Source of the DNA: Spirochaetales bacterium | Lineage (GTDB): Bacteria > Spirochaetota > Spirochaetia > UBA9216 | NCBI GenBank assembly: GCA_016839055.1 | Contig: JAEKNX010000002.1 | Location: forward strand, 441,451-505,450 | DNA length: 64,000 nt | Direction of reading: 5' to 3' | Program-made: the position numbers and the translations under genes | Shown here: one piece after another, positions 52,365 to 58,617 of the stretch | Position numbering within the stretch: position 1 is the stretch's first letter | Layout of the letters: each line of letters begins with the position of its first letter | Notes under the pieces: generated by a model | Database searches by the model: none | What the model saw: the letters and a program-made list of their open reading frames with translations, nothing else | What the model was told of the DNA's origin: nothing

Positions 52365-53039
52365 ATGAGTCTTGTCCGGATTGAAGGACTTCAAAAGAAA
52401 TTTAAGACAGAAGCCGAAGAGCTTTTGATTCTGAAGGATATAAACCTAGAGGTTAAACCGAATACTACTGTTGTGATTACAGGCGAGAGCGGCTGCGGAA
52501 AGAGTACTCTGCTCAATATCATCGGTGGACTCGAAAAGGCTGATGCGGGGCACCTGTCAGTTGACGGACAGAGTGTTCCCGAGATGAGTGAGAATGAACT
52601 CTCGACATACAGGAAAACTAAAATAGGATTTATTTTTCAATTTCACTACCTGATGAAAGATTTCACCTGCGTTGAAAATGTAATGATACCTTATTTCATG
52701 GCGGGAAACAGCAGGAAAGAAGCGACCGAGCGGGCCGAAGCTATTCTGGGAAGGGTAAAGCTTGACCATCGAATGACCCATTATCCGGCACAGATGTCCG
52801 GAGGTGAGAGGCAGCGCGCGGCTTTTGCCAGGGCGCTCATAAATGATCCTATGATTATACTGGCGGATGAACCCACCGGAAATTTGGATGAAGAGAATTC
52901 CAGGATAGTCGAGACGCTGCTCTTCGATCTGGTCGAGTCTTTCGGAAAGACCCTTATTATGGTCACCCATGATCTTGAACTTGCCGGACGTGGAGATTTG
53001 GAATACCTCTTGAGTAAAGGGGAGCTTCATCTTAAATGA
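52365..53039 (+). CDS. lolD: LolD-type ABC transporter ATP-binding protein
   Basis: 224 residues. Walker A GESGCGKST (about 40-48), Q-loop FIFQFHYLMKDFT, signature MSGGERQRAAFARAL, Walker B MIILADEPTGNLD and the switch His in VTHDLELA. The length and pattern match LolD/MacB-type ATPases. GGGGAG precedes the start. It overlaps the next gene by four bases. Confidence 0.93.
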   Translation: MSLVRIEGLQKKFKTEAEELLILKDINLEVKPNTTVVITGESGCGKSTLLNIIGGLEKADAGHLSVDGQSVPEMSENELSTYRKTKIGFIFQFHYLMKDFTCVENVMIPYFMAGNSRKEATERAEAILGRVKLDHRMTHYPAQMSGGERQRAAFARALINDPMIILADEPTGNLDEENSRIVETLLFDLVESFGKTLIMVTHDLELAGRGDLEYLLSKGELHLK

Positions 53040-54298
53040 AGATAAAACCAGGGTTTTCATTTTTTCTAGGACTCAGAAATTTCTACAGCTTCAGAAAGGG
53101 TAAGAGAAGAACTATGGCCGGAGCGGTAATAGCGGTTGCCTTGTCTATAATACCGCTAATAGTAGTGCTCGAAGTCTCGGATGGTATGATTGAGGGCATT
53201 ACACGAAGGTTTATCGAACTCGAAACTGGTCATTTGCAGGTTTCATCATATGAGGAGATGTCCGTCAGCGAAATGGAGAAAGTCAGCCGTGAACTCGAAG
53301 AGCTTCCTGAAATTATCTATGCCTCGCCGGTTTACCGAGGTATGGGGCTTATATATTCTGAAAACTATAAATCAGGCATTCAGGTAAAGGCACTTCCGCC
53401 GGATATTTATGAGAAAGACAGTGGGTTCAGAAATTATCTGGAAATAACCGGCGGTGAGTTCGATCTGAGCGGGGGGGAGAATATAATGCTCAGCTCTGAG
53501 CTTGCCAGACAGCTCGGAGTGAAGGCCGGTCAGCAGATAAAACTGCTGACCGGCAAGACCGCCAAGAATGGAAAAATGATACTGCGGCCGGAGATGTATG
53601 AAATAAGCGGAATATTTTCAACCGGCTATTATGAGGTTGATTCAATGACGGCATACATCAATCTTGAAAAGGGTGAAAAGCTGTTCAGGGGAGAGGGCCG
53701 GCTGCATATTCAGTGTAAAATTATCGATCCCTATGATTCCGCCGACCAGACTGCACTGATGATCAGAGATAAATATGAGTCTTTTTCTACCGTTACATGG
53801 TTCCGGATGCAGAAGTCGATGTATGAATCACTCTATACAACAAGAATTCTCCTCCTGTTCATCATGGCAATAATAGTAATAGTGGCGGCCGTGAATATCG
53901 CCTCTTCGCTATTAATAATGGTAGTCGAGCGAAGGCAGGATATTGCAATCCTGAAAAGCTGCGGAACATCAAATATTCATATTAGAAGAGCCTTTATCTA
54001 TACAGGGATGTTTACCGGCATAATCGGAGCCGTCGCGGGAATAACCATCGGTCTTCTGATATCAATGAATATAAACGGAATTATTCAATTTATCCGGAAT
54101 ACCGTATCATTTATCAGCGGCAGTCCTGCGGTACTCTCGGCCTCAGAGTATTATCTGGAGCAAATTCCGGTGAAAGTGAAAATTCCGGAGATTCTTATAG
54201 TCGCAGTAACGACAGTACTACTCTCTACCGCCGCCGCGCTTCATCCTGCCAGGAAAGCGGAAAAAATGTCTCCGAAAGAGATTATGCAGAAGCATTAG
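53036..54298 (+). CDS. LolE-type ABC permease
   Basis: A 420-residue permease with the same layout as the one at 51102: one N-terminal TM, an extracytoplasmic domain (about 55-270), three C-terminal TMs, and an ending KAEKMSPKEIMQKH. AILKSCGTSNIHIRRAF is the coupling segment. The two permeases probably form a heterodimer on LolD. A substrate other than lipoproteins (MacB-like export) cannot be excluded. Confidence 0.9.
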   Translation: MKIKPGFSFFLGLRNFYSFRKGKRRTMAGAVIAVALSIIPLIVVLEVSDGMIEGITRRFIELETGHLQVSSYEEMSVSEMEKVSRELEELPEIIYASPVYRGMGLIYSENYKSGIQVKALPPDIYEKDSGFRNYLEITGGEFDLSGGENIMLSSELARQLGVKAGQQIKLLTGKTAKNGKMILRPEMYEISGIFSTGYYEVDSMTAYINLEKGEKLFRGEGRLHIQCKIIDPYDSADQTALMIRDKYESFSTVTWFRMQKSMYESLYTTRILLLFIMAIIVIVAAVNIASSLLIMVVERRQDIAILKSCGTSNIHIRRAFIYTGMFTGIIGAVAGITIGLLISMNINGIIQFIRNTVSFISGSPAVLSASEYYLEQIPVKVKIPEILIVAVTTVLLSTAAALHPARKAEKMSPKEIMQKH

Positions 54299-54542: not shown

Positions 54543-55055
54543 ATGAAATGCGATGTATGCGGAGATAATGAAGCCGTAATTCATGTTAAACAGATTATGG
54601 GTGAACAAATAAAAGAGCTGCACCTTTGCTCTGAGTGTGCCGGTGAGAAGGGAATATCGGGTGAAGAAGATCTGATTGAATTATCTCTCTCCCAGCTGCT
54701 GACAGGTTTAATTGATTTAACGGATAAGTACAGCGGCAGTGAACAGCGTAATGTCTGTCCTGTCTGCGGAACTACAATTAAGGATTTCAGGAAGAACGCG
54801 GCAGTAGGCTGCGCGGACTGTTATAATGTTTTTAATAAGGAAATCGAAAACTATCTTGAAAATACAGCGGGACAGATCCAGCATACCGGAAAACTGCCTG
54901 AGAAGGTAGTTACCCTGAAAACTCTCCTCGTCGACAAGGAAAGCCTCAGAGCAAAACTTGAAAGCGCTATCGGCCAGGAAAATTATGAACAGGCAGCCAT
55001 ACTGCGTGACAGAATTAAAATTATTGAGAAGCGGGCGGGAGTCGATGATGAATAG
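54543..55055 (+). CDS. mcsA: McsA-like zinc-finger protein
   Basis: A 170-residue protein with two zinc-binding regions (CDVCGDNEA with CSECAGEKG, and CPVCGTTIKDF with CADCYNVF) and a C-terminal UVR motif (LRAKLESAIGQENYEQAAILRDRI). In Firmicutes McsA activates the arginine kinase McsB and works with ClpC. AAGGTG precedes the ATG. The next gene overlaps its end. Confidence 0.92.
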   Translation: MKCDVCGDNEAVIHVKQIMGEQIKELHLCSECAGEKGISGEEDLIELSLSQLLTGLIDLTDKYSGSEQRNVCPVCGTTIKDFRKNAAVGCADCYNVFNKEIENYLENTAGQIQHTGKLPEKVVTLKTLLVDKESLRAKLESAIGQENYEQAAILRDRIKIIEKRAGVDDE

Positions 55056-56109
55056 TCCTATTATTATAGACGAAAAAAATGGATGGTTCTCACGCAAGGG
55101 AGCCTCTGATGATGTGGTGATAGCAAGCCGCGTAAGACTGTCTCGTAATATTAACGGATTCCTTTATCCTGGAAAGATGGAACAGAAGGATGAGGATGCG
55201 GTTTCAGCTAGTATTAAAAGCGCATTTGAAAAAATAGATACAGAAGACCTCTGGAGAGGCTCAGAGATTGGCAAGCTCAATCCTCTTGACCGGAAAATTC
55301 TGCTTGAGAGGAATCATCTGACTCAGGATTTCATCCTACATAGTAATAAATCAATTGTCCTGAGCAAGGATAACCTGTCTTCCTGCGCGGTGAATGATAC
55401 TGATCACCTTCGAATGTCTTTTTTCGAAGGCGGACTGAGTATAAAAGAATGCGCGGACAGGGCTGATGAGCTTGATCGGAAGATAGAGAAGCACCTTGAT
55501 TTCGCGGTATCATTTGAGTTTGGGTATCTTAATACCGAGGTGAACAATCTCGGAACAGGAATGAAGGCATCGGTTATGATGCATCTTCCGGCTCTGGTTA
55601 AGGCAAACCTGATTGAGAAGGCACTCAAGGCGGTTGTTCAGATTGGATTCACTGTCAAAGGCTTCATGGGTGATGATGATCATTCGCTCGGAAGCATGTA
55701 TCAGATATCAAACCAGTTTACAATAGGCCACTCCGAGGCCGAGATAGTTGATAAACTCCAGAATCTGTGTACGCAGATAGCCGAGTATGAGCGGAAGGCT
55801 CGTGAAGAAATGTTTCAGAAAAAAAGAACCGAGATAGAAGACTCGGTTTTCAGGGCTTACGGCCTGCTGACAAACTGTAGAATACTGAGTTCCAATGAAG
55901 CAATTGAGAATCTGTCGATGCTGCGGATGGGGATTGGTTTGGGTTTGATAGATCTTCCCATCGAAGTATGCAGCAGTCTTATTTTTTTGAGCCAGAAATC
56001 ACACATACAGAAGATGATAAAAGACGGTGAATCAAGGGCTGATGAGATGCTTGTAGATTTTACACGAGCAGATTTCATTAAAAATACCATAATTCAGAAA
56101 AAATTGTAG
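55048..56109 (+). CDS. mcsB: McsB-like phosphagen-kinase fold protein with replaced active-site residues
   Basis: A 353-residue McsB homologue. The start is ATG 55048 (GGGAG six bases upstream); the ORF is open from 54958, overlapping mcsA. It has the kinase core: VVIASRVRLSRNI at about 23-35 and GTGMKASVMMHLPAL at about 169-183. However, NEEDH reads NDTDH at 116-120 (Thr for the guanidino-binding Glu). The Cys of the CPTNxGTG signature reads Glu164 in NTEVNNLGTG, and the GExSEAxG loop reads GDDDHSLG at 208-215 (His for the second Glu). These are the residues that bind the guanidino group, so arginine kinase activity is doubtful. It may be a pseudokinase adaptor for ClpC or use another acceptor. 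Confidence 0.85.
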   Translation: MNSPIIIDEKNGWFSRKGASDDVVIASRVRLSRNINGFLYPGKMEQKDEDAVSASIKSAFEKIDTEDLWRGSEIGKLNPLDRKILLERNHLTQDFILHSNKSIVLSKDNLSSCAVNDTDHLRMSFFEGGLSIKECADRADELDRKIEKHLDFAVSFEFGYLNTEVNNLGTGMKASVMMHLPALVKANLIEKALKAVVQIGFTVKGFMGDDDHSLGSMYQISNQFTIGHSEAEIVDKLQNLCTQIAEYERKAREEMFQKKRTEIEDSVFRAYGLLTNCRILSSNEAIENLSMLRMGIGLGLIDLPIEVCSSLIFLSQKSHIQKMIKDGESRADEMLVDFTRADFIKNTIIQKKL

Positions 56110-56124
56110 ATTATGGAGGAACGA

Positions 56125-58617
56125 ATGTTTAAAGGACTTACACAAAGAGCACAGAGAATACTTACGATTTTCGCGCAGGAGGAAGCAAAGAGATTTCACT
56201 CTGACCAGCTTCTGCCCGAGCACATTATTCTCGCCGTAATCAAGGAAGGAGAGGGAATAGGATACAAGGCCATGAAGAACCTGAGCATTGATCCTATAGA
56301 ACTCCAGCTTGAAATTGAGAGGAATATTCCCAAGAAGCATAGCGGTCTGATTTTAGGAGATGTGCCCCCTTCCAGACGCGGTAAGAAGATACTCGAGGAT
56401 TCGGCTGAAGAAGCAAGAACGCTTGGGCATGATTATATTGGAACAGAACATTTGATTATCGCAGCCTGCAATGAGAGCGGCAGCATAACATCAAGATTTT
56501 TTCTTAAGCACTCGATTAACCCTGAAAATGTCAGGACGGCAGTTGTGGAACTTCGAGGCCCGGGGAATGTTAAACCGAAGATCTCAGGCCTCCAGGCTGA
56601 ACCGGGACGGAAGAAGGGGGTTATCAACGGAAAGAAGAATACTCCCACTCTCGATGAATTTGCACGGGAACTAACCGAGTATGCCAAGGAAGATAAACTT
56701 GACCCTGTAATTGGACGGGACAAGGAGATTCAGAGGGTCATCCAGATTCTGGCGCGGAGAAACAAGAATAATCCGGTTCTTATCGGTGAACCCGGTGTAG
56801 GCAAGACAGCGATTGTTGAAGGTCTCGCCCAGAAAATCGTGAATGGAGAGGCACCTGAGATTCTTCTCGGGAAAAGGGTTCTGACCCTTGATCTTGCCGC
56901 CCTTATTGCCGGAACCAAATACCGCGGAGAATTCGAGGAACGTCTCAAGAGAGTAATGAAGGAAATTCTTGCCGCCGGCAATGTTATTCTTTTTATTGAC
57001 GAACTGCATACTATAATCGGCGCAGGCGGCGCTGAAGGGGCCATAGACGCATCTAACATGCTGAAACCGGCATTGTCACGCGGAGAGCTTCAGTGCATCG
57101 GCGCTACGACCCTTAATGAGTATAAGAAATATATCGAGAAGGATGCAGCGCTGGAGCGGAGGTTTCAGACAATCCTGGTCGAAGAGCCGAATGTCGATGA
57201 TACTATTGAGATACTGAAGGGTATAAAGATCAATTATGAGGAACACCATAATGTTCGCTACACAGATGAGGCGCTTAAAGCGGCGGCAAAACTCTCGGAT
57301 AAATATATATCCGATCGCTTTCTCCCGGATAAGGCCATAGATCTCATAGATGAGGCAGGTTCATTCAAGAGGATTAACAACAGCATCAGGCCGAAAGAAC
57401 TAGCCGAGATGGAGAAAAAAATAGAAGATCTCACCCAGGAGAAGATAACTCTCGTTAATAGTCAGAACTATGAGAAGGCCGCCGCGGTAAGAGACACCGT
57501 CCGCAAGATGAAATCTGAAGTTGAAGAACTAAAGAAAGGCTGGCAGGATAGCCTTCGGCATGAAAAAAACGAGGTTGGAGCCGATGATATCCAGGCACTT
57601 ATCTCGAATATTACCGGAATACCTTTATTTCGAATTGTGCAGACTGAGTCGGAACGTCTGCTTAATATCGAGGGTGAGCTTCATAAGACCGTTATCGGAC
57701 AGGATGCCGCAATAAAGGTTGTAGCATCCTCAATCAGGCGGTCCAGAGTGGGTCTCAGTTCGCCGGCAAGACCTCTTGGCTCGTTTATCTTCCTGGGGCC
57801 TACTGGTGTAGGAAAAACACTGCTGGCAAAAACTCTGGCCGAATTTCTTTTCGGAAATCAGGATTCTTTGATCAGAATCGACATGTCTGACTATATGGAG
57901 AAACACAACCTCTCAAGGCTCGTCGGAGCTCCCCCGGGTTATGTGGGGTATGAAGAGGGCGGCGTTCTCACCGAGCAGATAAGACGGAGACCCTATAGTG
58001 TCATCCTTCTTGATGAAATTGAAAAAGCCCATCCTGATGTTTTTAACCTCCTTTTGCAGGTGCTTGAGGAAGGTGAACTCGCCGATAATCTCGGACACAA
58101 GGTATCATTTCGAAATGCCGTGCTCATCATGACGAGTAACGCTGGGGCCAGGGAAATAAGCAGAGGATCAGCATTGGGTTTCTCAGTCAGTGAAGGGATA
58201 ATGGCTCATAGTGAGATTAAGATATCGGCAATGAGCGAGCTTAAAAGGGTCTTTCGTCCGGAATTCCTGAACCGAATTGATGATATAGTCGTTTTTCACA
58301 GTCTTGACAGACAGAATGTGAGCGAAATCTTTGACATTATGATGAGCGAAGTTGCCTTGAGACTATTTGAGAATAACATCTTCATCGAGATCAGCAAGAA
58401 AGCTAAAGAAAAGCTTATTGTTGACGGCTACGATGTTAAATATGGAGCGCGTCCGCTGCGTCGTGCCATTCAGAACCAGATAGAAGATCCATTGTCAATG
58501 GAGATGCTGAAAGGCACTTTTAAGAGCGGAGATCATATCTTTGTAGAATGTCGGAATGAGAAGATTAAATTCAGGAAGAAGACCGTTCAGAAAGAAAAAG
58601 AGACTAATGTACAATAA
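56125..58617 (+). CDS. clpC: ClpC AAA+ unfoldase
   Basis: Unfolds proteins for ClpP and works with McsAB. It has 830 residues. Order: N-domain ([20 protein letters not shown]), first AAA domain with Walker A GEPGVGKT near 220 and [13 protein letters not shown], a middle domain with a UVR-like stretch ([14 protein letters not shown]), and second AAA domain with Walker A GPTGVGKT near 558, then a C-terminal D2 small domain. The ATG at 56125 (GGAGG five bases before) is preferred over the ATG at 56113. Confidence 0.95.

Follow-up and report, generated by a model that had tools for sequence, protein, structure and literature searches.

A spirochaete McsB homologue without arginine-kinase catalytic residues, encoded between mcsA and clpC

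In bacteria, McsB marks proteins for degradation by tagging their arginines. In the 64,000-nucleotide stretch of Spirochaetales DNA analysed here (the window; contig JAEKNX010000002.1 of assembly GCA_016839055.1), a McsB homologue lies between mcsA and clpC with the residues for this chemistry replaced. What, then, might such a protein still do beside ClpC, and is it the oddity of one gene?

The locus and the active-site positions of its McsB homologue

As the initial annotation had read them, the mcsA and clpC reading frames flank that of the McsB homologue (Table 1), in the order mcsA-mcsB-clpC and with the start of mcsB overlapping the end of mcsA by 8 bases. Located 5' of mcsA is a lolC/lolD/lolE-like set, these names being putative and taken from a reading of the ORFs. 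Our promoter and terminator scan of the window returned only chance-level matches, and no CIRCE or CtsR boxes were found in the 64 kb.

Table 1. Features of the locus and of the McsB active site, in window coordinates
Feature	Position	Strand	Remarks
lolE-like permease gene	53036..54298	+	upstream of mcsA
mcsA	54543..55055	+	170 aa, two CxxC-pair zinc fingers, C-terminal UVR motif
McsB homologue without arginine-kinase catalytic residues	55048..56109	+	353 aa
SRVRLSRN	55126..55149	+	R-x-R nucleotide motif (R29, R31) and R34 kept
NDTDH replacing NEEDH	55393..55407	+	E120D, E121T
Glu164 replacing signature Cys (C167)	55537..55539	+	
Lys173 replacing essential R176	55564..55566	+	
Lys204 replacing essential R207	55657..55659	+	
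Lid loop GDDDHS replacing GEGSEA	55669..55686	+	E212D, E215H
C-terminal pArg-pocket region	56053..56067	+	R337V; D338 and R341 kept
clpC	56113..58617	+	N-domain, UVR motif, two AAA modules; E32 and E106 equivalents (pArg-site glutamates) present

The window protein aligns end to end with the McsB of Bacillus subtilis (8wtb; ~31% identity), Geobacillus stearothermophilus (6fh1), and Staphylococcus aureus (8gqd), with E-values from 3e-62 to 6e-44, and shares with these three the two-domain build as well as a preceding mcsA and a following clpC. It carries the PF00217 catalytic domain (E-value of 1e-48), as do the phosphagen kinases (arginine and creatine kinase), though unlike them its guanidino-site residues are replaced and a McsB-type C-terminal domain is present. 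At the level of sequence, descent of the window protein from McsB is shown. A profile search of the source genome (97% complete) found this ORF to be the sole PF00217 gene. Here, we noticed that the protein falls below the cut-offs of both NCBIfam McsB models (309.2 bits against 385 and 280.2 bits against 500). An AlphaFold2 model of the window protein together with L032 and L033 had a mean pLDDT of 35 and was not used, as the pocket geometry is not visible in it.

Residues are numbered as in B. subtilis McsB, with C167 as in PMC7235348 (the 8wtb chain is offset by 2). Alignment with the Bacillus and Geobacillus proteins, the check that the initial annotation had suggested, bore out over the full length its claims that NEEDH has become NDTDH and that the signature Cys has become Glu (C167E). 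Its third claim, a GExSE loop turned into GDDDHS, holds in that the lid is changed at both glutamates, but the last of these is not diagnostic, given that S. aureus McsB reads GEGSQV. Since Gln stands there in S. aureus, loss of the last GEGSE Glu alone means little; E215 was dropped as the lid catalytic Glu and our counts were redone with E212, the lid Glu common to all three reference McsB and Asp in the window. The annotation had also described the ATP-side motif as kept, which is so for R-x-R and for the Arg that follows NEEDH (R125), but two further essential arginines have become Lys. According to the B. subtilis experiments reported in PMC7235348, an R-to-K exchange at R29, R31, R34, R125, R176, R207, or R337 abolishes all in vitro labelling by McsB, and one at R86, R255, R272, R281, or R341 only removes stimulation by McsA. 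The window protein keeps four of the seven in the first set (K, K, and V at 176, 207, and 337) and four of the five in the second (R86 being Lys). Set against the three reference McsB, it thus retains R-x-R, R125, R341, and D338, and lacks E121, C167, E212, R176, R207, and R337. For arginine kinase, PMC11075012 reports that Glu225, Glu314, and Cys271 bind the guanidinium in a modelled transition state.

Three relatives of the same genus, whose McsB is 70-72% identical, have the same Cys-to-Glu change and nearly the same lid, which rules out a sequencing error. Moreover, in this clade (four rows, all with a full-length McsB frame) identity is 87% over the four active-site segments versus 73% elsewhere and reaches 93% in the lid; only 7 of 337 circular shifts of the mask give an excess at least as large. 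No such pocket excess is seen in families f29, f24, and f4, where 208, 237, and 136 of the 337 shifts do so, respectively. The window protein thus comes from a lineage whose pocket, though remodelled, has stayed conserved, whereas the pocket of these others is eroded. Within the genus, identity is 70-72% for McsB, 78-84% for McsA, 89-91% for ClpC, and 59-63% for LolE. The NG86 dN of window pairs is 0.21-0.25, with a low but rough dN/dS, as dS is saturated.

The same positions across the spirochaete phylum

The NF002194 model matched 242 of the 392 phylum genomes, none above its cut-off, and our residue table comprises 101 McsB rows, namely 99 of these 242 genomes (chosen for best score and family spread) and two named records whose McsB is identical to that of G395 and G394. 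Ten genomes, the weakest of a set of 40, gave no locus and were left out, so the residue counts may understate decay. None of 14 control genomes matched in the NF002194 and PF00217 searches, so neither had a positive control that worked within that set. B. subtilis, known to carry McsB and CtsR genes, is named as a matching control for LMWPc and gave no McsB or CtsR match; its control genome may be masked there.

E121 and C167 are both kept in 26 of the 101 rows, E121 alone in 17, and neither in 58. The initial annotation had treated the loss as one gene's oddity and had proposed a look at other spirochaetes; the oddity is real in the window gene but forms part of a phylum-wide gradient, and going by the aligned residues it appears that most of the phylum has undergone the same change, though not everywhere to the same extent. 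The states are nested, as no row has lost E121, or the R-x-R arginines R29 and R31, with C167 kept (0/101 each). Arg337 is kept in only two rows, R341 in 99, and His123 in all 101. The full set of E121, C167, E212, and arginines 29, 31, 34, 125, 176, and 207 is found in just two of the 101, those of G012 (L008) and G036 (L034), which form a sister pair on the tree. A quick maximum-likelihood tree was built without the trait columns and without L103; several of its rows are long branches, and the direction of change was not inferred. On this tree, the state with both E121 and C167 changes at least eight times. The linked losses are strong by simple counts, though they come to between 3 and 11 independent pairs on supported branches, with no significant sign test. 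Where residue 121 is Thr or Ser, residue 167 is Asp, Glu, or Asn in 12 of 13 rows, and NDTDH or NDSDH with one of these at the Cys position is also present in a separate group (L055, L056, L070, L071, and L073), so the pair looks convergent.

Most loci of families f27, f38, f46, and f54 with NEEDH and Cys (e.g., L002, L005, and L017) have Lys or Arg at E215 and Cys, Ser, or Gly at R337; as these two positions are changed in many, regulation may differ even in the kinase-like McsB of spirochaetes. In the f29 loci L045, L051, L057, L065, and L066, R-x-R is gone, as is much of the lid in four of the five. Among the best matches in the open-licence literature, no paper was, by its title, on spirochaete McsB or its pseudokinase state.

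Partners, eraser, and repressor

An mcsA ORF adjoins mcsB in 97 of 102 loci and clpC lies downstream in 92 (window counted twice). The five loci without a separate mcsA consist of one at a contig end (L009), two fusions (L096 and L103), one with an overlapping McsA ORF (L082), and one in which none was seen (L101). In the fusions, from G308 (L096, family f13; 524 aa) and G214 (L103, family f49; 377 aa), McsA and McsB share one open frame, measured between stops, whose N-terminus carries CxxC pairs of the McsA type. As the McsA profile became mixed with ClpC through the common UVR motif, McsA assignments were verified from gene position and the number of CxxC motifs, and 94 of the 97 McsA ORFs have at least four CxxC motifs (window counted twice). 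All ten genomes without a detected downstream clpC have a ClpC-like gene, which in G063 is adjacent to mcsB. Loci that keep mcsAB with clpC elsewhere in the genome include L045, L051, L057, L065, and L066 (family f29) and L039 and L043 (family f57).

Four genomes without McsB (G081, G349, G380, and G246) have a lolE-like gene immediately before clpC, so mcsA and mcsB can be absent together. Moreover, among another 40 genomes in which McsB had no match, 30 have a ClpC-like gene, and ClpC without McsB is hence common elsewhere in the phylum. Upstream of clpC in G040 (L153, family f25) is a relic-like 300-aa frame that combines a McsA zinc-finger piece with a degenerate N-terminal part of McsB. 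The pArg glutamates of ClpC, considered as a sign of surviving pArg signalling, were rejected as such: they are kept in 22 of 26 cases with kinase-like McsB, in 48 of 51 with McsB lacking both residues (window counted twice), and in 29 of 34 where no McsB was found (three of the 34 being without the region), as well as in chloroplast ClpC1. Being kept equally without McsB, they are uninformative either way, and PMC12583610 reports that E32 and E106 also matter for the resting state of ClpC.

A profile search found CtsR in none of the 392 phylum genomes, the window genome included (the Lactococcus positive control matched, and only Lactococcus did). Thr in the CTGNTC loop marks a phosphatase as arginine-specific. 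That one residue decides phosphatase specificity is described in PMC5506225. Our DNA pattern for the CTGNTCR loop, which covers CTGNTC loops only and would miss others, matched in seven of the 392 genomes; by frame, these matches are two YwlE-like phosphatase ORFs (VCTGNTCRSPMAE) in G012 and G036, one arsenate-reductase-like ORF (G141), and four in frames of 17 to 44 aa. G012 and G036, by this pattern the only two of the 392 genomes with a YwlE-type loop, are thus the same two that keep the McsB key residues. The literature and the reference alignments supplied this residue set and the phosphatase did not, although the set was tabulated after the phosphatase search; given that the two McsB are a sister pair, the co-retention of writer and eraser counts as one evolutionary event. 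The initial annotation had also called for an arginine-phosphatase search of the window genome, where the CTGNTC pattern and inspection of its two LMWPc proteins (loops CLGNICRS and CTGNSCRS, not GNTCRS) gave no YwlE-type loop. Unlike the reference McsB systems, then, the window is without ctsR in operon or genome and without this loop. The LMWPc-type proteins L182 (G000:C15:32233-32625) and L186 (G141) have the loops CTGNSCRSQMAE and CTGNTCRSQMAD, and by eye they resemble thioredoxin-type arsenate reductases rather than phosphatases.

Candidate roles beside ClpC

The sequence gives good support to a loss of protein-arginine kinase activity: neither the catalytic Glu nor the Cys remains, and three arginines that B. 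subtilis McsB requires are replaced, two of them by Lys, the very substitution with which PMC7235348 reports inactivation. Pseudoenzymes are defined in PMC10211241 by missing conserved catalytic motifs, and such motifs are absent from the window protein (E121, C167, R176, R207, and R337); to this extent the pseudokinase reading of the initial annotation stands, the inactivity itself being what we infer. By a small margin over even chances, we favour a McsB-derived pseudokinase or remodelled McsB that acts with McsA on ClpC without arginine phosphorylation. The window McsB would no longer phosphorylate protein arginine; McsA-McsB would bind ClpC, perhaps under the control of a nucleotide bound in the remodelled pocket, and would bring or regulate ClpC clients directly, such that ClpCP might be served without a phosphoarginine mark.

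Substrate delivery to ClpC would fit the kept operon, the intact McsA zinc fingers, and the adaptor role reported for B. subtilis C167S, and for the window McsB itself it is gene order alone that suggests such a role. In PMC7235348, the half-life of MgsR is given as 12.3 min with the kinase-inactive C167S and 17.7 min without McsB, which its authors read as a partial, kinase-independent adaptor role. The window protein resembles this kinase-dead mutant, reported there to keep part of the adaptor function, in having lost the signature Cys, though C167S is one engineered change and those of the window protein are several, natural, and fixed across a genus. Counting against our favoured explanation, PMC5506225 reports that the adaptor role and ClpC activation need McsB kinase activity in B. 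subtilis. Likewise, at least four relatives have clpC but no mcsAB, so ClpC does not need mcsAB, and a pocket conserved above the rest is also what one would expect of a working enzyme.

Somewhat more boldly, and only tentatively, the window genus may have a rebuilt rather than a dead pocket, in which the Cys thiolate has given way to a carboxylate beside NDTDH and an acidic DDD lid. Such a pocket might be a nucleotide switch for ClpC delivery without phosphorylation or might serve another phosphate acceptor, and most of the phylum would have dismantled pArg tagging (writer residues, YwlE-type eraser, and CtsR) and kept McsA-McsB as a ClpC partner; as part of this reading, a partly similar pair of pocket changes would have arisen in at least one other group. 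A protein that is still a phosphotransferase, with Glu164 (where the Cys was) and the DDD lid in place of the lost carboxylates and with arginine or something else as acceptor, we consider unlikely. Conservation of pocket and lid above the rest in the window genus is what gives a kinase with another acceptor its chance, and the seemingly convergent NDTDH/NDSDH pair, the 12 of 13 rows with a matching residue 167, and the migrated catalytic residues that PMC10211241 describes in some pseudoenzymes point the same way. On the other side, R176K, R207K, and R337K each abolish B. subtilis activity as reported in PMC7235348, where the window has K, K, and V, no pArg phosphatase loop was found in its genome with the CTGNTC pattern, and the association of 121 with 167 amounts to three pairs on supported branches and is not significant.

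A decaying relic, in which arginine phosphorylation is lost and mcsAB is drifting towards deletion, would agree with the nested states, the unexceptional pockets of f29, f24, and f4, the four genomes lacking mcsAB between lolE and clpC, and the 300-aa remnant in G040. For the window we nevertheless hold it to be quite improbable, given a clade McsB that is more identical than lolE and most conserved in its pocket, a full-length frame in all four genomes, and the low, if rough and dS-saturated, dN/dS. Arginine kinase retains some activity when a single Glu is mutated, and this, with the same fold family, the same partners, and the R-x-R motif, speaks for an ordinary protein-arginine kinase despite the substitutions. 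Such a kinase we regard as very improbable, since six positions are changed together, several of them tested as essential in PMC7235348, and the protein scores below both NCBIfam cut-offs (309 of 385 and 280 of 500 bits).

In B. subtilis, the adaptor and kinase roles of McsB are intertwined, which raises the question of whether McsB can serve ClpC without arginine phosphorylation. Spirochaetes, with their graded losses beside an intact mcsA and clpC, appear to have split the two roles several times, and for most of them neither 'protein arginine kinase' as a gene name nor an expectation of phosphoarginine signalling is warranted. G012 and G036, with the key residues of the writer and a YwlE-type loop, provide natural positive controls.
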